A stretch of DNA of 37,989 nt. Origin: Nitrospirota bacterium (GTDB taxonomy: Bacteria > Nitrospirota > Thermodesulfovibrionia > UBA6902). Where the stretch lies: the NCBI GenBank assembly GCA_011040095.1, contig DRDE01000038.1, forward strand, positions 1 through 37,989, read 5' to 3'. Below are positions 3,101-13,382 of this stretch, piece after piece (positions within the stretch are counted from its first letter, which is position 1; the number at the start of each line of letters is the position of its first letter). Under the pieces are notes generated by a model that was given only the letters and a program-made list of their open reading frames with translations, did no database searches and was not told the origin of the DNA. The position numbers and the translations under genes are program-made.

Positions 3101-6100
3101 ATGAAAGCAAGGTATTTAAGTGTCTTAATATTCCTCTTTTTCTTATCACTCCTTATTTTCACAAATAATGTTTATACGTCAACCGATGTCACCTCTTTTG
3201 TACAAATTAATAAATCGGGTGCATACTTTAACCGCAGGACAGGTCAGACCTCATACGATGTTACATTAACGAATATATCCAGCGAAACAATACAAAAACC
3301 GGTTTACGTTGCAATAGAAAATCTTAGTCCGGGCGAGGTTACAGTTGCCAATCCTGACGGGTATACAGCCGGAGGAGACCCATATTACGATTACAGCGCC
3401 TTGATTGCCGGCGCTGCTTTTGATCCGGGAGGGATATCTTCCCCGAAGAAGTGGATATTTAATAACCCGAACAGGCTGCGTTTTACCTATACAACTGTCG
3501 TCTACGGACCTTATTCTGTTAACGATCCGCCGGTAGCCGATGCAGGGATGGATCAAAATGCCCTTATAGAAGTTCCTGTCTATCTGGATGGAAGCGGAAG
3601 TTATGATCCTGACGGAGATTTAATTACTTTCCAATGGACAATGACTGGATCTCCTTCCGGCAGCTCAGCAGCTTTGAGCGGTATTGATACAGCAAGCCCA
3701 CGTGTAACACCTGATATTAGTGGTGACTATACATTTCAGCTCACTGTAAACGACAGTCAGGCAGACAGCGCCCCTGATGAGGTAATTATTCATGCATCCG
3801 TTTCCAATGTTGCTCCGAATGCTGATGCCGGACCGGATCAGTCTGTATTAGTGGATTCCACGGTATTCCTCGACGGAAGCGGGAGTTTTGATCCGGATAA
3901 CGCTCCGGGCCCTTACTCTTTTATTTGGACGTTTACCGGAACACCTTTAAATAGTATGTTCGGCGGCACCGCTCTTACCGGAGTAAGTCCTGTTTTTATC
4001 CCTGATATAGAGGGGGAATTTGTTGTTGAGTTATGGGTAAGTGATGGAGACCTTAGTGATTATGATCAGGTCTCGATTTTTGCAGGGATATCCAATCAGG
4101 CGCCTAATGCTGATGCGGGAGCGGATCAGATAGTCTGGCAGTTGAGTCAGTCGGTAAGTCTGGATGGTAGCGCAAGCTTTGATTCTGATAATGGACCGTC
4201 TGTCCTGACTTATCAATGGTCGTTTGTGTCGCTTCCTGTCGGAAGTACGTTAACCAATACAGGTATAGTTAACGCAGCCACGTCTATTGCCGGCTTCACT
4301 CCTGATGTATATGGAGCTTACCTCCTGAATCTGGAAGTTAATGACGGTGCATTGACTGATAATGACCATACACTGGTAATTGTAACTACCGAAAATAATC
4401 CTCCACAAATAGATATTACGAATCCCGTGGATGGCGCATTTATAAACACGACTAAACCAGATATAACCATAACATTCAGTGACGATGATTCCGGGATAGA
4501 CATTAATAGCTTTAGTGCAGAAATAAACGGGGTGGACAGTAGTTCGTCATTTATTATTTCAGAAAGCGGGGCAAGTTATCAGGTTACAACTGATTTGCCT
4601 GTAGGAAACAATACCATAACTTCCAGTATCAGTGACAATGCAGGAAACTCCGCAAGTGCAACCTCAAACTTCAGAATAGGAATCTTAAGAGCTATTCCCG
4701 GGGCGAGCCCGACTTCAGGGCCATCTCCACTGACAGTTCGATTTACTACAGATGGAGAGGACCCGGCTGGAACAATTCAGATATTTCGATGGGATTTTGA
4801 CGGCAACGGAACATGGGACACGTATGACACCGTTGCGCGGGATTATAACCATACTTATAATAATTCCGGGGTCTATAATGCGACATTGTATGTACAAAGC
4901 AGTACGGGGAAAACTGCTACAGCAAGCATTCTTATAACTGTTGAAAATAATCCGCCGGTAGCGACCGCAGATGTAGTCCCTTCCAATGGAGAAGTTCCCT
5001 TAACAGTTCAATGCATAGGTTCAGGAACAGATAGCGATGGGCAAGTAGTGCTTTACGAATGGGATTTTGATGGAGACGGGACATATGATTGGTCTTCCAC
5101 AACAACCGGGAATACCTCTTATACATACACTTCTCCGGGAACTTTCCAGGCAGTTTTCAGGGTAACAGACAACAATGGCTTGACATCAACGGCATTACCG
5201 CCTAATACGATCGTCAGGGCAGGCCCACCGGGATCGCCGACAGCAACTGCTTCAGCCAATCCAACAAGCGGCAATGCCCCGCTGAATGTCAGTTTGAACT
5301 GCACAGCAACTGACCCCGACAACGATATAGAACTTTATGAATGGGATTTTGAAAGCGACGGTGTTTATGACTGGTCATCTTCAACGACAGGAAGTACTTC
5401 TCATACATACAATGAAGCAGGGACTCATACAGCAAGCTGCAGGGTTACCGATTCTACGGGCTTAACAGGTATAGATCAGATTCTGGTTACAGTTGATATC
5501 GATGTCAGCCTTTCGATTCAGAAGGATACTGTTGGATTTCTTGATGATTCAGGGATGACGGCAAGCGCCAGCAGTCAGTATAGCTCGTATTATGCACCGG
5601 ATAAGGCGATTGACGGAAATACAGGGACATATTGGGTATCATGCTGGTATTGTACTTCTGGTGAGTGGTTTGAGGTATCATTTAACGCCCCCCAAAAGGT
5701 TTCAGGTTTTACGATAACTTGGTACAACTCATCCTCTTACAAAATGTCCAGAGCTAAGATAGAAGTTTTTAATGAGAACAATGATGTCCTGTATAGTCAG
5801 GAAGCCGATTTTTCAGGCAGCGTATCTAACGTCAGCTTGCCTGATGTGGAAAATGTTACGAGAATTCGGTTGACTACCATAAACTATTCAAGTAGCTATT
5901 ACATTATAATCAAAGAATTTGACGTGAATAGTACGCCGATGTCAGTCGGTCAGCCAGAACCTACCGGAACCAATATCGATACTTCAATCAGCGCAGCAAC
6001 ACAGGTTTCTATATTGATAAAAGATTCGGATGGGAACGTGGTTCGAACACTTGTGAACAACGAATCGCGAGATACGGGCTCTTATTCGGATTATTGGGAT

Positions 6101-6889
6101 GTTAAAGATGATTATGGAATTGTGGCAAATGATGGAGTCTATTATGCTATTTTGCAATATATAGTTGACGGGGAGGTTAGAACTCTTGATTTAGCCGATT
6201 CCACAGGTGGTACCAGGCATAAGTTTCCTTTTGGCTCGGGTTGCAACCGAAGAAGTTCGTTTAATTCAAACTTCAGTCCATTTGAAGATAATTTCCTGCC
6301 TTTAACGTTTGAGCTTTGTACGGCACAAGAGGTTACGGCGTTTATTGGACCGCTGTGGGGAGGAGCAGATGCGACCAGAGTAAGAACAATTGTTAACAGG
6401 GAAGTTTTTCCTGCAGGAACTCATACTATTTACTGGGATGGGTTAGATGATAATGGCAATATAGCTGAAGCTTCTCCGGGAGATAGTCTGATAACCGGAT
6501 TTTGGCGTTATGATCTTTCTGATAATGCCATTGTTGTAACAGGCGGAAAACCTGTAATAACGAATATTAGTGCAACTCCAAATTATTTTAGTCCCTTTAG
6601 TGAAAAGTGTGATGAAAACGGGAATGGAGAAGGTATAACTATAAATTACACACTTTCTGAAGATGTAGCCACTGTTGAGCTTCAAGTATACAGTGTTAAG
6701 ACCGGATCATTATTAAGGACAAGTTCTTTCAGTAATGTTCCATCCGGAGATAACGCGATCTTTTGGGATGGAAAGAATAACAATGGTGAATATGTAGATA
6801 TAGGTGATTATAGCATTGGTCTTATAGCTATTGATGCTCAGGGAAATGAATCAATGTTCAGATATACCCTGGTGAGAATAGATTATTAA
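3101..6889 (+). CDS. Large secreted surface protein: multiple PKD/Ig-like domains, discoidin (F5/8 type C) domain, FlgD Ig-like repeats
   Basis: Signal peptide; PKD motifs (PVADAGMDQNALIEVPVYLDGSGSYDPDGDLITFQW; YEWDFDGDGTYDWSSTT); discoidin-like SSQYSSYYAPDKAIDGNTGTYWVS; FlgD-Ig NAIFWDGKNNNGEYVDIGDYSI. Confidence 0.85.
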   Translation: MKARYLSVLIFLFFLSLLIFTNNVYTSTDVTSFVQINKSGAYFNRRTGQTSYDVTLTNISSETIQKPVYVAIENLSPGEVTVANPDGYTAGGDPYYDYSALIAGAAFDPGGISSPKKWIFNNPNRLRFTYTTVVYGPYSVNDPPVADAGMDQNALIEVPVYLDGSGSYDPDGDLITFQWTMTGSPSGSSAALSGIDTASPRVTPDISGDYTFQLTVNDSQADSAPDEVIIHASVSNVAPNADAGPDQSVLVDSTVFLDGSGSFDPDNAPGPYSFIWTFTGTPLNSMFGGTALTGVSPVFIPDIEGEFVVELWVSDGDLSDYDQVSIFAGISNQAPNADAGADQIVWQLSQSVSLDGSASFDSDNGPSVLTYQWSFVSLPVGSTLTNTGIVNAATSIAGFTPDVYGAYLLNLEVNDGALTDNDHTLVIVTTENNPPQIDITNPVDGAFINTTKPDITITFSDDDSGIDINSFSAEINGVDSSSSFIISESGASYQVTTDLPVGNNTITSSISDNAGNSASATSNFRIGILRAIPGASPTSGPSPLTVRFTTDGEDPAGTIQIFRWDFDGNGTWDTYDTVARDYNHTYNNSGVYNATLYVQSSTGKTATASILITVENNPPVATADVVPSNGEVPLTVQCIGSGTDSDGQVVLYEWDFDGDGTYDWSSTTTGNTSYTYTSPGTFQAVFRVTDNNGLTSTALPPNTIVRAGPPGSPTATASANPTSGNAPLNVSLNCTATDPDNDIELYEWDFESDGVYDWSSSTTGSTSHTYNEAGTHTASCRVTDSTGLTGIDQILVTVDIDVSLSIQKDTVGFLDDSGMTASASSQYSSYYAPDKAIDGNTGTYWVSCWYCTSGEWFEVSFNAPQKVSGFTITWYNSSSYKMSRAKIEVFNENNDVLYSQEADFSGSVSNVSLPDVENVTRIRLTTINYSSSYYIIIKEFDVNSTPMSVGQPEPTGTNIDTSISAATQVSILIKDSDGNVVRTLVNNESRDTGSYSDYWDVKDDYGIVANDGVYYAILQYIVDGEVRTLDLADSTGGTRHKFPFGSGCNRRSSFNSNFSPFEDNFLPLTFELCTAQEVTAFIGPLWGGADATRVRTIVNREVFPAGTHTIYWDGLDDNGNIAEASPGDSLITGFWRYDLSDNAIVVTGGKPVITNISATPNYFSPFSEKCDENGNGEGITINYTLSEDVATVELQVYSVKTGSLLRTSSFSNVPSGDNAIFWDGKNNNGEYVDIGDYSIGLIAIDAQGNESMFRYTLVRIDY

Positions 6890-6932: not shown

Positions 6933-9900
6933 ATGCGGTGTAACAAATACGTAAAAAGGATAAATATTGCTCTTTTCTTAATCTTGCTGGTTACTCTATT
7001 TCTGCCCAATAACAGTTTCTCCTATAACAAAAGCTGGGACCAGGGACATAAAGTTGTTGAGACATCTCCTGGAAGTGGTTTATGGGGACGTTGGGACTAT
7101 GATGGTAAATGGGTAGGAACTTACACTTCAAAAGAGTGCTGTGAATTGCTATGTAAGATTTGTCCTGTTTATGCCAACACTGGACGCTTGCAAAAAACAT
7201 ATACGGATTTAACTGTTCCCGGTGTTGGTCCGGCATTGAATATTACAAGGACATATAACAGCCAGGAGTGGGCCTCCGGTCTTTTGGGGTATGGCTGGAC
7301 ATTTAACTTAGGCCGGCGGTTAATCATCGGCCGAAGTAATGCCGGTGATAAAATTATAGGAGTTTTGCTTGAGACCGGGGAAAAGAATTTCTATAAAGAA
7401 CACACGGATAACACACTGGAGCGTTTGACAGACTATGGCGCAACATACAAGCTAATCAAGAATGCGGACAATACTTACACCATAAAAAACATAGACGGCA
7501 CAAGATATGAACTCAGGAAAGACGGGAAAATAGCAAAGGTTATCGATAAGAATAACAACGAACTGGTATTTACATATAATGCCGTTGGTTGCCTGACTAG
7601 GATTACCAATGCTTCAGGCAACTATGTGGACCTGGTGCTTGGGCCGAATGGAAAGATTGCAAACATTTCTGATAATCTGGGCAGAACCATCAGCTATGGA
7701 TATGATGATAACGGAAATCTTACCTCAGTCACCGACCCTATGGGCAATATTACTCAATACGTATATGACAGTGATAACCTGCTTACCCAGATCATTGACG
7801 CAAGAGGCAATACAGTTGAGACCGTCTCATATGACAACAACCAGCCTCCCAGAGTCTCTACTTTCACAGAAAAGGGAGAAACTTACACTGTAGCTTATTA
7901 TAACGGCTACACGGTGAAAACCGATTCTTCAGGAAATGCATGGACTTATTATTACAATGATGTCGGCGTAATAACAAAGGTTATTGATCCCTTAGGCAAT
8001 GTCAAGGAACTCTCTCTCAATAAGATCACGGCTACCAGTAAAGACTGGGAGGAGGATTTAAACGGCAACCGTACGACATATACCTATGACGTTGATGGAA
8101 ATATTGCAAGCAAGACCGATCCATTGGGGAATACGTGGACATATACATATGTTGCAGGGACAGACTGGTTGTTGACGGAAACCGATCCTATGGGGCATGT
8201 AACGAAATATGAATATGATTCAAATGGCAATATTGTAAAAATTACCCGTGATTACGGTGGCCCTTTAGAAAATGCAACAACATATACATATAACAGTGCT
8301 GGAAACAGAACAAGTATGACTGATTCGTTGGGGAATGTAACGCTATACGCATATGACTCTGACGGAAATTTAACTCAAGTCACAGATGCTTTAGGCAATG
8401 TTACAACATATACATATGACAGCTTCGGAAATAAACTCACAGAAACGGATCCGCTGGGTAACACAACAACATATACATATGATCTTTTAAACAGGTTGAC
8501 TTCTGTTACAGATGCCTTAGGGAATAGCACCACTATCACTTACGATCCTAACGGGAATATTCAGAGTTTGACAGATGCTGCCGGTAATACGACTTCTCAT
8601 ACCTATGATGCTTATAACCGACTCATCCAGACAACTGACCCATTAGGTAATGTAACTCAATTTACATATGATTCACAGGGAAACAAGACCAGTATAGTAG
8701 ATGCAAATGGTAATACAACCTCTTTTTCGTATAATGTGTTAAATCGATTAGTTTCTGAAACAAATGCTTTAGGCAACACCACGAGTTATACATATGATGC
8801 TAATGGCAACCGCACAGCTATAACGGATGCCAATGGCAATACAACTACTTTTACCTATGATGCATTGAATAGACTAATCAAGACAACATATCCTGATGGA
8901 ACCTTTGAGACCTTCTCTTATAATGCTGATGGCAATCTTATTGCCAGGACAGATCGCAACGGTAATACCATCAACAGCACCTATGATTCATTGCACAGGC
9001 TGACAGTAAAGACTTATCCTGATGCTACTACAACCAATTTTACTTACGATACGAATGGAAACATATTAACAGCGAGCAATTCTGATGTCTCATATGCTTT
9101 TACTTATGATGCTCTAAATCGGGTAACCCGGGTTACCAATGTCAGCCTGGGCAAGAGTGTTTCTTATTCTTACATCTGTTGCGGTTTAAAGAGCAGCATG
9201 ACCAATCCTGAAGGAGGGGTTACTACTTACACCTATGATGCCTTGAAGAGGCTAACAAGTCTGACCAATCCTCAAGGTGAAACTACGAGCTACACGTACG
9301 ATAACCTGTCCAGAACTGTTAGAAAAGACCTTGCAAATGGCAGCTATACTATTTACAACTATGATGCAGTAAGCAGACTTGTAAGTCTCATTAATAAAAC
9401 TTCTGCTAATTCTGTAATATCGAGTTATAGCTATACCTATGACAATACCAGCAACAGAACTTCAATGACGACCTTGTCAGGAAAACATAATTACACATAC
9501 GATAAAATTTACGAGTTACTGCAGGCTACTCACCCCACTTCATCTACAGAAACGTACACATATGACCCCGTTTATAACAGATTGACTTCAGATAGTTATC
9601 CAAGCTGGACTTACGACAGTAATAACAGGCTAACCTCTTTCAATGGTACAAGTTTTACATATGATGCCAATGGGAATACTATTTCTAAGACAGATACTTC
9701 CGGTGTAACAACTTACCAATATGACTATGAAAATAAATTGGTTAGAATCGATTATCCTGATGGCACATATAGCGAATATAGATATGATCCATTTGGTGAC
9801 AGGATTAAAAAGGATGTTAATGGCACAGTTACATGGTTTGTCTATGATCTTATGAAAGAATTGCCCGATATGCTTGCTGAGTACGATGGGGGCAACTCAT

Positions 9901-10664
9901 TAATTGTCAGCTATACCCACGGGCTTGAAGTTGATGAAGTAATTTCAATGAGAAGAGGTGGATCGAGTTACTTTTACTTAAAAGATGCATTAGGAAGTAT
10001 TGCTGCGCTTATTGATAATACTGAATCAACAGTTAATACATATGAGTATGATGCTTTCGGAAATGTTATTACTCAAACCGGGACTGCTATTAATCCATAT
10101 GGATATACTGGCAGAAGATTTGATACTGAATCAGGGTTGATGTATTATAGGGCAAGATACTATTATGCAAGTATTGGTAGATTTATTAGTGCTGATCCTA
10201 TTGGTTTTATAGGGGGAATAAATTTTCATGTTTATGTTCTTAATAACCCGATAAACAATTCTGACCCAGAAGGGTTGAAAGTTCAAGTATGCTGTAGGTT
10301 ACTTCATGGATGGTTAGGTACTATACTACGACAACGTCATTGTTATATTAAAACCGATAAAAAAAATTACGCATTATTTCCTAAAAAAAATAAACAAGGG
10401 AAGCTCATAGGTGTACCCACAGATAACTCTCCTGATCCAGATGGTAGACCAACTAAATGCGCTGATTGCCCACCATTGCCTGATTGTAAAACTGAAGAAT
10501 GCTTGGCAAACGCACACAAAGCCTATCCTATAGGAAAATACTTCTTTTTAGGACCAAACAGCAATACCTATGCAGGAACGTTAGCTAGAAAGTGCTGCAA
10601 GGGAGGAGTACCTAAGGGACTTGGTTCAGCTCCTGGAATAAATGATAACCCCCCTGTTCCTTAA
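6933..10664 (+). CDS. Secreted RHS/YD-repeat protein with RHS core domain and a variable C-terminal tip (candidate toxin)
   Basis: Signal peptide (RINIALFLILLVTLFLPNNSFS); many YDxxGNxTxxTDxxGN repeats; RHS core GYTGRRFDTESGLMYYRARYYYASIGRFISADPIGFIGG..NNPINNSDPEGL, followed by a ~125-aa Cys-rich tip (HCYIK...GPNSNTYAGTLARKCC). Confidence 0.9.
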   Translation: MRCNKYVKRINIALFLILLVTLFLPNNSFSYNKSWDQGHKVVETSPGSGLWGRWDYDGKWVGTYTSKECCELLCKICPVYANTGRLQKTYTDLTVPGVGPALNITRTYNSQEWASGLLGYGWTFNLGRRLIIGRSNAGDKIIGVLLETGEKNFYKEHTDNTLERLTDYGATYKLIKNADNTYTIKNIDGTRYELRKDGKIAKVIDKNNNELVFTYNAVGCLTRITNASGNYVDLVLGPNGKIANISDNLGRTISYGYDDNGNLTSVTDPMGNITQYVYDSDNLLTQIIDARGNTVETVSYDNNQPPRVSTFTEKGETYTVAYYNGYTVKTDSSGNAWTYYYNDVGVITKVIDPLGNVKELSLNKITATSKDWEEDLNGNRTTYTYDVDGNIASKTDPLGNTWTYTYVAGTDWLLTETDPMGHVTKYEYDSNGNIVKITRDYGGPLENATTYTYNSAGNRTSMTDSLGNVTLYAYDSDGNLTQVTDALGNVTTYTYDSFGNKLTETDPLGNTTTYTYDLLNRLTSVTDALGNSTTITYDPNGNIQSLTDAAGNTTSHTYDAYNRLIQTTDPLGNVTQFTYDSQGNKTSIVDANGNTTSFSYNVLNRLVSETNALGNTTSYTYDANGNRTAITDANGNTTTFTYDALNRLIKTTYPDGTFETFSYNADGNLIARTDRNGNTINSTYDSLHRLTVKTYPDATTTNFTYDTNGNILTASNSDVSYAFTYDALNRVTRVTNVSLGKSVSYSYICCGLKSSMTNPEGGVTTYTYDALKRLTSLTNPQGETTSYTYDNLSRTVRKDLANGSYTIYNYDAVSRLVSLINKTSANSVISSYSYTYDNTSNRTSMTTLSGKHNYTYDKIYELLQATHPTSSTETYTYDPVYNRLTSDSYPSWTYDSNNRLTSFNGTSFTYDANGNTISKTDTSGVTTYQYDYENKLVRIDYPDGTYSEYRYDPFGDRIKKDVNGTVTWFVYDLMKELPDMLAEYDGGNSLIVSYTHGLEVDEVISMRRGGSSYFYLKDALGSIAALIDNTESTVNTYEYDAFGNVITQTGTAINPYGYTGRRFDTESGLMYYRARYYYASIGRFISADPIGFIGGINFHVYVLNNPINNSDPEGLKVQVCCRLLHGWLGTILRQRHCYIKTDKKNYALFPKKNKQGKLIGVPTDNSPDPDGRPTKCADCPPLPDCKTEECLANAHKAYPIGKYFFLGPNSNTYAGTLARKCCKGGVPKGLGSAPGINDNPPVP

Positions 10665-10744: not shown

Positions 10745-11644
10745 ATGCAGAGGCGAAATACATTATTCCCAATGGCTATTATAAGTATTTCATCATTTTT
10801 CTTGGTAGCCATGGGTCAGTTGCAAGTTAATGGTTTTACCGATTTAAAACAAAGCAAGTTTCTATTTTGTGATTCACAAGAAATAGCAGTTGGCTTCTTT
10901 AAAAAAAATAAATTAGAGCTTAATCCTTTAAATCTAAGTTTGAAAATCGAAGATATACATAATTGTTCATACTCAAAAGAAAAAAAATTGATCATTGCTG
11001 CTGTCAGCAATAGACAATTTGCGCAACACGAAATATTGTTTATAAACCCAAATAATGGTTTAGTTAATGTCTTAATGAAGCAAGAGATCATTTATCATGT
11101 TTCAATTTCGAATTCAGGAGAAAACATTGTCTTCACAGCACCTCCTACTAAAGGTGATAATGGTGTAAGTTTATATTTATACGATCTGGAAAAGGGATTG
11201 ATACATTTGCTTGTAGCGGATGAAGTACATAGATTAAGTATTCCATCTTGGAGCATAGATGGAAAAAAAATTGTTTATCATGATATCCATAATCAAATAA
11301 TATGTGTTAATTTTTCCACAGGAGAGAAAAGAGAGATTTTTACTACTGGAGAATTTCCAGTTTTTTCGCCTTTCAATGCAAATCAGATTGCATATATAAA
11401 AGATGGTAGAATTTATATATGGGACTTTATGACTAAAGCCAGCAAAGAAATATTTCGTAGTAATTGGTTCTGGCAATCAGAACCCTTTGGGCGATTAAGT
11501 TGGTCAATTAACGGAAAATACATTATCTTTTGTAGAGCAACTGGTCTAACCGGATATAAAAAAACCTTTTATGCTGTTAATGTTAAAGATAAAAAGGTAA
11601 TGAAAATTTATGAAGGGTATATTAAGGAATTGCAATTCATGTGA
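10745..11644 (+). CDS. Exported TolB/WD40-like beta-propeller protein directly downstream of the RHS gene
   Basis: Hydrophobic N-terminus; blade motifs SWSIDGKKIVYHDI, FSPFNANQIAYIKDGRIYIWDF, LSWSINGKYIIFCRA. Confidence 0.6.
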   Translation: MQRRNTLFPMAIISISSFFLVAMGQLQVNGFTDLKQSKFLFCDSQEIAVGFFKKNKLELNPLNLSLKIEDIHNCSYSKEKKLIIAAVSNRQFAQHEILFINPNNGLVNVLMKQEIIYHVSISNSGENIVFTAPPTKGDNGVSLYLYDLEKGLIHLLVADEVHRLSIPSWSIDGKKIVYHDIHNQIICVNFSTGEKREIFTTGEFPVFSPFNANQIAYIKDGRIYIWDFMTKASKEIFRSNWFWQSEPFGRLSWSINGKYIIFCRATGLTGYKKTFYAVNVKDKKVMKIYEGYIKELQFM

Positions 11645-11864: not shown

Positions 11865-12275
11865 TTAAATGAGCTTCAGGCATTTTTTAGCAGTTAAAAC
11901 TTTAAAGGGTAAATCTGAATGGTGGTTGAGAAAGTGCCGGTTTTCGGAGATGAGGGCATCTGCCCCAACCCATTCGGGATATGCTGCAATAAAAGCATCT
12001 GCAGGTTTAAGACCTCTGGCTTCGTATTTAGCCGCTGTTTCGAAAGGAACTACAATGTCTTCGTCAATTGTGGTTAGGGTATTTATTACTTTAATAAATG
12101 TAGCAAAATCTTCAGGCGAGAGATGGCTGCGAACTTCTTCAACAATTCTGCGGGAGATACGAAGGGTATGCAATTTGTGTTTATCAACGATTTCAAGGAT
12201 TATTTTTTTACATGCAGGAACTTTTACAAGTCCAAAACCGAATATATATACATTTGAATCAATGACGAGCAGCAA
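11865..12275 (-). CDS. PIN-domain toxin (VapC-like); start taken at TTG (LLVIDSNVY...), the ORF track begins at 12320
   Basis: PIN pattern: VIDSNVYIFG ... SRRIVEEV ... LKPADAFIAAYPEWVGADALISENRHF. The partner small ORF is immediately upstream and overlaps. Confidence 0.7.
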   Translation of the reverse strand: MLLVIDSNVYIFGFGLVKVPACKKIILEIVDKHKLHTLRISRRIVEEVRSHLSPEDFATFIKVINTLTTIDEDIVVPFETAAKYEARGLKPADAFIAAYPEWVGADALISENRHFLNHHSDLPFKVLTAKKCLKLI

Positions 12276-12426
12276 ACTTTTCCTCCCAGAGTTTCTCCCT
12301 GACTTTGCGTATTGCTTCAATAGCTTCTTCCTTGGTCATTCCTGCAAGCGGATTGCGTTTTTTAGATACACTTTTGCAAAGCTCGTCCCACAGTCTTTTA
12401 GCTTCTTTTACGTTTTTATTTTTCAT
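12259..12426 (-). CDS. Small putative antitoxin (55 aa) upstream of and overlapping the PIN toxin; not in the supplied ORF track
   Basis: Hand translation: MKNKNVKEAKRLWDELCKSVSKKRNPLAGMTKEEAIEAIRKVREKLWEEKFAARH*; overlaps the PIN gene start in another frame. Confidence 0.6.
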   Translation of the reverse strand: MKNKNVKEAKRLWDELCKSVSKKRNPLAGMTKEEAIEAIRKVREKLWEEKFAARH

Positions 12427-12749: not shown

Positions 12750-13382
12750 TTGAATTCAGCAATGGAAAATAAAAATAAGGAAAAAGCAATTGAATATGAA
12801 AGCGGGCTTGTAAAATCATTTGATTTTGTACTGAGGGAGGCGGAGGAATTGTATGAGGGACACGGGCGGCTTAGAGAGACATTTGAACGCCTTGCAAGAT
12901 GCCTGGAATATGTAGGCGTTTCTTATAGTCTTGTTGGTGGTTATGCCCTTATTCTTCACGGTGTGCGGCGCTTTACTGAGGATATAGACCTGTTAGTTTC
13001 AAATGAAGGATTGGCTAAAATCCATAAAGAACTTATCGGGAAAGGTTATATCAGGGTTGCGCCGGAAAGTCGTAATCTCAGGGACGCTGAGACCGGTGTA
13101 CAGATTGAATTTTTAGTAACAGGACAATTCCCTGGAGACGGGAAGCCTAAGCCGGTCGCCTTTCCTGACCCGCGGGCTGTAATGGAAAAGCATGAAGGGA
13201 TCAAGGTTGTAAACCTCAAATCATTAATCGAACTCAAGCTGGCTTCGGGGATGACCTCAAAAGAGCGATTACAGGATTTAGCTGATGTGCAACGGCTAAT
13301 AAAGGTACATCATTTGACTACCACCTTTGCTCAGAAACTGCATCCATATGTCCGGGATAAGTTTTTAGAATTGTTGTCATAA
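12750..13382 (+). CDS. Nucleotidyltransferase-fold protein (MNT/AbiEii-like)
   Basis: YSLVGGYALILHGVRRFTEDIDLLV: GG..hG..R.T.DIDL nucleotidyltransferase signature. Confidence 0.7.
   Translation: MNSAMENKNKEKAIEYESGLVKSFDFVLREAEELYEGHGRLRETFERLARCLEYVGVSYSLVGGYALILHGVRRFTEDIDLLVSNEGLAKIHKELIGKGYIRVAPESRNLRDAETGVQIEFLVTGQFPGDGKPKPVAFPDPRAVMEKHEGIKVVNLKSLIELKLASGMTSKERLQDLADVQRLIKVHHLTTTFAQKLHPYVRDKFLELLS

Follow-up and report, generated by a model that had tools for sequence, protein, structure and literature searches.

The C-terminal tip of an RHS protein encoded in a 37,989-nucleotide stretch of a Nitrospirota genome (contig DRDE01000038.1 of assembly GCA_011040095.1; "the window" refers to this whole stretch) is a polymorphic-toxin tip. 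It belongs to a DUF3750-like family of the Ser type, probably permuted papain-like, which was not found described as a toxin in the literature searched. The tip (positions 10278-10661, + strand; residues 1116-1243) ends the product of an open reading frame (ORF) at 6933-10664 (+), which runs from ATG to stop without interruption and encodes 1243 amino acids. An effector role for the tip is well supported, and the evidence as a whole leans towards a Sec-exported RHS polymorphic toxin whose permuted papain-like tip would act in the envelope, probably on acyl-lipids.

Pfam and NCBIfam scans of the protein identified an RHS backbone (7164-10277, +) composed of DUF6531 at residues 78-133, RHS repeats (PF05593; 25 stretches, 413.8 bits) and, at residues 1039-1115, the RHS-associated core (TIGR03696, 85.2 bits), which ends in DPEGL and is followed by a non-repeat tip of 128 amino acids; this is the order of repeats, core and tip found in RHS polymorphic toxins. 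A first-pass annotation, made from the sequence alone, had described a tip without YD repeats after the RHS core, and the tip itself was confirmed, while its start, which had been placed at 10270, falls a few bases within the end of the core and out of frame. The signal peptide which it had reported was also present: residues ~1-30 (6933-7022, +) form a typical Sec signal (MRCNKYVKRINIALFLILLVTLFLPNNSFS) with a basic n-region, a hydrophobic h-region and an SFS-like c-region, as judged from the sequence and not by a dedicated predictor. PADLOC returned only weak matches for the whole RHS protein, and these were located in the RHS repeats.

Genes for PAAR and VipB (TssC) were not found anywhere in the genome assembly (79% complete) in searches whose positive controls worked, and no eCIS_core was found in the same assembly in a search without a positive control. 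The earlier claim that the window holds no VgrG/PAAR-like gene can thus be extended, for PAAR, to the whole assembly. On the PAAR and VipB searches of this 79% complete assembly, the protein had no PAAR/VgrG partner or type VI secretion system (T6SS) by which it could be classed as a T6SS effector; it has its own signal sequence and therefore fits the Sec-dependent RHS class (PMC3482391).

The tip was found to be unfamiliar, as had been proposed, with no family above cut-off in Pfam, NCBIfam or PHROGs, and searches of the PDB by sequence, using either the single tip or a profile, gave nothing useful. It is also Cys-rich, again as first described, with 9 Cys in 128 amino acids compared to 8 in the other 1115; seven of the nine are conserved in relatives from Nitrospira, and so many Cys would be in keeping with a location outside the cytoplasm, under oxidising conditions.

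The first-pass annotation had suggested looking for the tip on other RHS backbones, and a whole-genome search in the phylum identified it on two Nitrospira RHS proteins (identity to the window protein 37% in the tip and 49% in the adjoining core). Another relative from Nitrospirota, a 383-amino-acid eCIS_core (PF13699)/DUF4157 protein, was recovered with a profile search; its gene, in a Nitrospira-family genome (L050, G169:C12:64000-82000), is the third of three eCIS_core cargo genes in a locus resembling an extracellular contractile injection system (eCIS). The ORFs read on the contig of this relative included AAA ATPase, tail tube, LysM, VgrG-like and baseplate-like genes, and the protein therefore appears to be the cargo of an eCIS. 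When its domain was used in tblastn, three plasmid-borne alphaproteobacterial effectors were recovered, located directly 3' of VgrG, PAAR and DUF4123 genes in Paracoccus alcaliphilus, after DUF4123 in Thioclava and, in Agrobacterium vitis, downstream of a DUF4123 gene with transposase genes in between. Such sharing of one small domain by three delivery systems is typical of mobile effector domains. An alignment of six diverse relatives showed P-N-S-N, P-G, a Tyr and a single His to be invariant, and the His and N-S-N were unchanged across the three delivery systems at ~20-40% identity.

Within the same family and order, RHS backbones that are ~33-52% identical at the end of the core were found to carry different tips, namely Tlde1, YkuD, PLA2G12-like, DUF6973, Ntox24 and unnamed ones, and the window's own genome contained several RHS fragments with tips of the YkuD-like and Ntox24 types. 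The full conservation of the tip which the first-pass annotation had set against its own proposal was therefore not seen, and its view of the tip as exchangeable agrees both with these different endings and with the sharing of the domain by RHS, eCIS_core and DUF4123/T6SS backbones. The one genome of the same genus yielded no orthologue of the window RHS protein, and the G+C content of the tip (0.40) was the same as that of the RHS core (0.395; downstream gene, 0.31), which gives no evidence for a recent exchange of the tip. Envelope enzymes (Tlde1, YkuD L,D-transpeptidase and PLA2-like) were frequent among the RHS tips of the family and order (five loci), which suggests that secreted RHS proteins of this phylum often bear envelope-acting tips. 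It is very improbable that the tip is no toxin and instead caps a surface RHS protein in an adhesive or structural role: the upstream gene (3101-6889), whose product would be its partner, does encode a PKD, F5/8 and FlgD-Ig surface protein and the RHS protein does have its own signal sequence, but the tip domain is also T6SS and eCIS cargo and related RHS backbones carry polymorphic tips.

An early His and a late NSNTYA motif had been read in the first-pass annotation as hints of a papain/NlpC-like layout that is permuted and has Ser at the position expected for Cys. Both were located as described, the predicted catalytic His being His1136 (10338-10340, +; in RHCYIK) and the predicted nucleophile position Ser1210 (10560-10562, +; in GPNSNTYAG); the His and the NSN are invariant in the six relatives, and DUF3750 (PF12570) has an invariant His aligned with that of the tip and shows the same NSN motif. 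The DUF3750 model matched the window tip on the GPNSNTYAG stretch (E 0.12, 13.5 bits) and the tip of a Nitrospira relative more strongly (E 0.0033, 18.6 bits), in both cases below the gathering cut-off of 25, and by this measure the tip is a distant relative of DUF3750 and not a member. Comparison of the tip alignment with nine DUF3750 proteins using hhalign gave a match over 94 columns (E 3.2e-7, probability 93%, score 49) in which the tip His lay on the invariant His of DUF3750 and the NSN motifs fell together (His...GPNSNT), while 100 column-shuffled controls scored at most 24. In a published classification DUF3750 is a papain-like family in which a conserved Ser replaces Cys (PMC10318531).

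Other RHS tips of the phylum, gathered as a further set, carry Cys at the Ser position (GNNCNKF, TNQCQSF and SNNCNTL), and these tips matched the window tip set over nearly the whole tip (E 1.4e-4; score 30, compared to at most 17 in 150 shuffles). The Cys expected as nucleophile in permuted papain-like/NlpC-P60 families is seen in more distant RHS tips only, and all close relatives have Ser. The His comes first and the nucleophile after, which is the permuted order, and with the DUF3750 alignment in register and the existence of Cys-bearing cousins the proposed layout gains support at the level of sequence, a papain-like fold being predicted from profiles. A relationship of the tip to DUF3750 and papain-like families is, on these grounds, quite likely. 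At one of the Cys-type loci, the GNNCNKF tip is adjoined by a further RHS tip (L013, 2174-2635, -); from its HEHLFF ... SNCQDWA pattern, this seems to be a papain-like tip of the Cys type in its own right.

Further searches were made for relatives of the tip. There was no match to the window tip in phages or plasmids using tblastn, nor in viral contigs using a protein-pattern search. DNA patterns for GPNSN[ST]xA identified one DUF3750 gene and one broken tip-like fragment in the viral contigs, the remaining matches being chance reading frames. A genome scan with an alignment of the tip, for which weak patterns were chosen, led back to the two known Nitrospira loci and to no others, and two matches of the phylum search (L041 and L043) were iron-sulfur oxidoreductase-like and were taken as chance.

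The genes directly downstream of the tip were examined in each locus. A lipoprotein gene lies directly 3' of the tip in both Nitrospira loci (1-bp overlap) and directly downstream in L098 and L099, a signal- or transmembrane (TM)-bearing protein is encoded directly downstream in Thioclava and Paracoccus (4-bp overlaps), and in L013/L017 the product of the gene at this position has two apparent TM segments. A. vitis was the only non-eCIS locus without an exported or membrane gene directly downstream, and the eCIS cargo also lacked one. In total, an exported, lipoprotein or membrane gene followed the tip directly in 6 of 7 independent non-eCIS loci (sister loci counted once, the more distant gene of the window kept apart and the eCIS cargo left out), with localisation called by simple hydrophobicity and lipobox rules and some starts read by eye. 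These partners therefore indicate the envelope as the site of action, and it is considered probable that the tip acts in the envelope of the target cell.

In the window, the candidate immunity gene (10745-11644, +) encodes a 299-amino-acid exported beta-propeller-like protein with an N-terminal hydrophobic segment, for which the best Pfam match was DPPIV_N (21.4 bits, just below the cut-off of 22). The NlpC/P60 effector Tse1 has as its immunity protein Tsi1, a partial beta-propeller for which DPP IV is the closest structure (PMC3391265), and by position and by this analogy the 10745-11644 product is probably an immunity protein. The same pairing would also be compatible with a tip acting in the same compartment on peptidoglycan, as an amidase or endopeptidase like canonical NlpC/P60 effectors such as Tse1; the envelope inference applies equally to such an enzyme, peptidoglycan enzymes (Tlde1 and YkuD) are common among the neighbouring RHS tips and Tsi1 guards a peptidoglycan amidase (PMC3391265). 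A peptidoglycan substrate is nevertheless judged unlikely, as the His-first, nucleophile-last arrangement is the permuted one, whose studied members act mainly on lipids, and as the tip matches no canonical NlpC/P60 model.

The permuted papain-like enzymes characterised to date have mainly lipid substrates, and one of them, Tox-Act1, a toxin of the permuted NlpC/P60 type, exerts its toxicity in the periplasm alone and is a phospholipase cleaving phosphatidylglycerol and phosphatidylethanolamine, with an immunity protein of two TM helices (PMC12994826). On this precedent a Ser-His attack on envelope acyl bonds is proposed. Beyond what the data support (signal sequence, architecture, domain mobility, the DUF3750 relationship and exported or membrane downstream partners), we infer a fold, Ser catalysis, a lipid substrate, an immunity function and a release mechanism as follows. 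The RHS shell would presumably enclose the C-terminal domain and release it after the DPxGL junction, and the tip would then act in the periplasmic compartment of a competing cell. In its core the His would lie on an early strand, and a late helix would begin with the Ser, at the position that Cys occupies in papain-like enzymes; the two may attack acyl-ester bonds of membrane lipids, by analogy with Tox-Act1. The exported propeller-like 10745-11644 product would protect the producer. A lipid substrate with an active Ser is put forward tentatively, and slightly more tentatively still a true serine-nucleophile papain-fold toxin family, common to Sec/RHS, T6SS and eCIS, which would hydrolyse or transfer acyl groups of envelope lipids.

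Several observations weigh against this proposal. AlphaFold2, run twice, gave models of low confidence (mean predicted local distance difference test (pLDDT) scores of 46 and 61), and Foldseek comparisons with the PDB and a viral library gave nothing significant. In the weak model of pLDDT 61, built with few relatives, His21 (tip numbering) lies in a strand (20-25) and Ser95 just before a helix (96-106), and names of the Ac81-like type, a papain-like family, recur among the insignificant viral matches, which is only suggestive. The match between the tip and DUF3750 is dominated by the GPNSNTFA stretch, and the link to the Cys-bearing tips is moderate, being lost with a broader profile or when these are compared directly with DUF3750. 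Enzymes that tolerate Ser have negatively charged pockets, unlike DUF3750 (PMC10318531), and Ser in a papain site could represent a loss of activity. The Ntox24 tip in the same genome is no obvious envelope enzyme. The candidate immunity gene starts 80 bp 3' of the RHS gene, and its product had no similarity by BLASTP to the 298-amino-acid lipoprotein of L099, the only relative compared, which itself has no Pfam propeller match.

An alternative is that the tip is a catalytically dead papain-like domain, with Ser for Cys, whose remaining function would be the binding of a ligand (lipid, glycan or protein). The existence of Cys-bearing cousins would fit this, and in PMC10318531 the activity of such Ser-type families is called speculative and the DUF3750 pocket positively charged. 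However, a His and an N-S-N that stay invariant at ~20-40% identity are hard to explain without a selected site, and the gene neighbours are of the effector style; a dead domain is thus considered less likely still than a peptidoglycan-acting enzyme.

Other genes of the window were also noted. The gene at 3101-6889, on the same strand as the RHS gene, encodes a 1262-amino-acid surface protein (PKD, F5/8 type C and FlgD-Ig), ends 43 bp 5' of the RHS gene and possibly forms one operon with it. Two genes upstream of the RHS gene, at 2351-2950, a PEP-CTERM motif (E 5.6e-6), an exosortase-type sorting signal, was identified. Downstream, an ORF at 11865-12320 (-) has a PIN-like look, judged by eye, and 12750-13382 encodes a nucleotidyltransferase resembling AbiEii (E 9.6e-6), which may be part of a toxin-antitoxin system.

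The tip is a new candidate toxin domain for lists of RHS, T6SS and eCIS cargo. Whether Ser-type papain-like families are enzymes is left open in PMC10318531, the only place in the literature searched where DUF3750 is named, and a toxin relative bears on this question, since growth arrest that required the Ser and the His would mean that Ser-type papain folds are active. Should the serine-nucleophile toxin family prove true, DUF3750 would be its chromosomal, probably enzymatic relative.

In comparison with known systems, DUF3750 proteins share with the tip the GPNSNTFA motif, an upstream His in register, the YP(Y)xxxY spacing before the motif and Ser for Cys, but are ~250-260 amino acids long with a hydrophobic segment at the start and are not effector tips. 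Tox-Act1, DUF4105, TseH, YiiX and LRAT (PMC12994826) resemble it in having the His first and the nucleophile last, in their toxin contexts and in a membrane-associated or exported downstream partner, while their nucleophile is Cys and the tip has no sequence match to these models. The Tse1/Tsi1 pair (PMC3391265) likewise combines a papain-like effector with an exported DPP IV-like propeller protein; Tse1 is, unlike the tip, a canonical Cys-type NlpC/P60 amidase, and the likeness is one of analogy, PDB sequence searches having given no match. In the portion of Zhang et al. 2012 (PMC3482391) consulted, the papain-like toxin classes are Cys-type, unlike the Ser-type tip, and a search of that text gave no mention of LRAT or permuted members; the Sec-dependent RHS toxins described there share with the window protein a signal peptide, RHS repeats and a variable C-terminal toxin.
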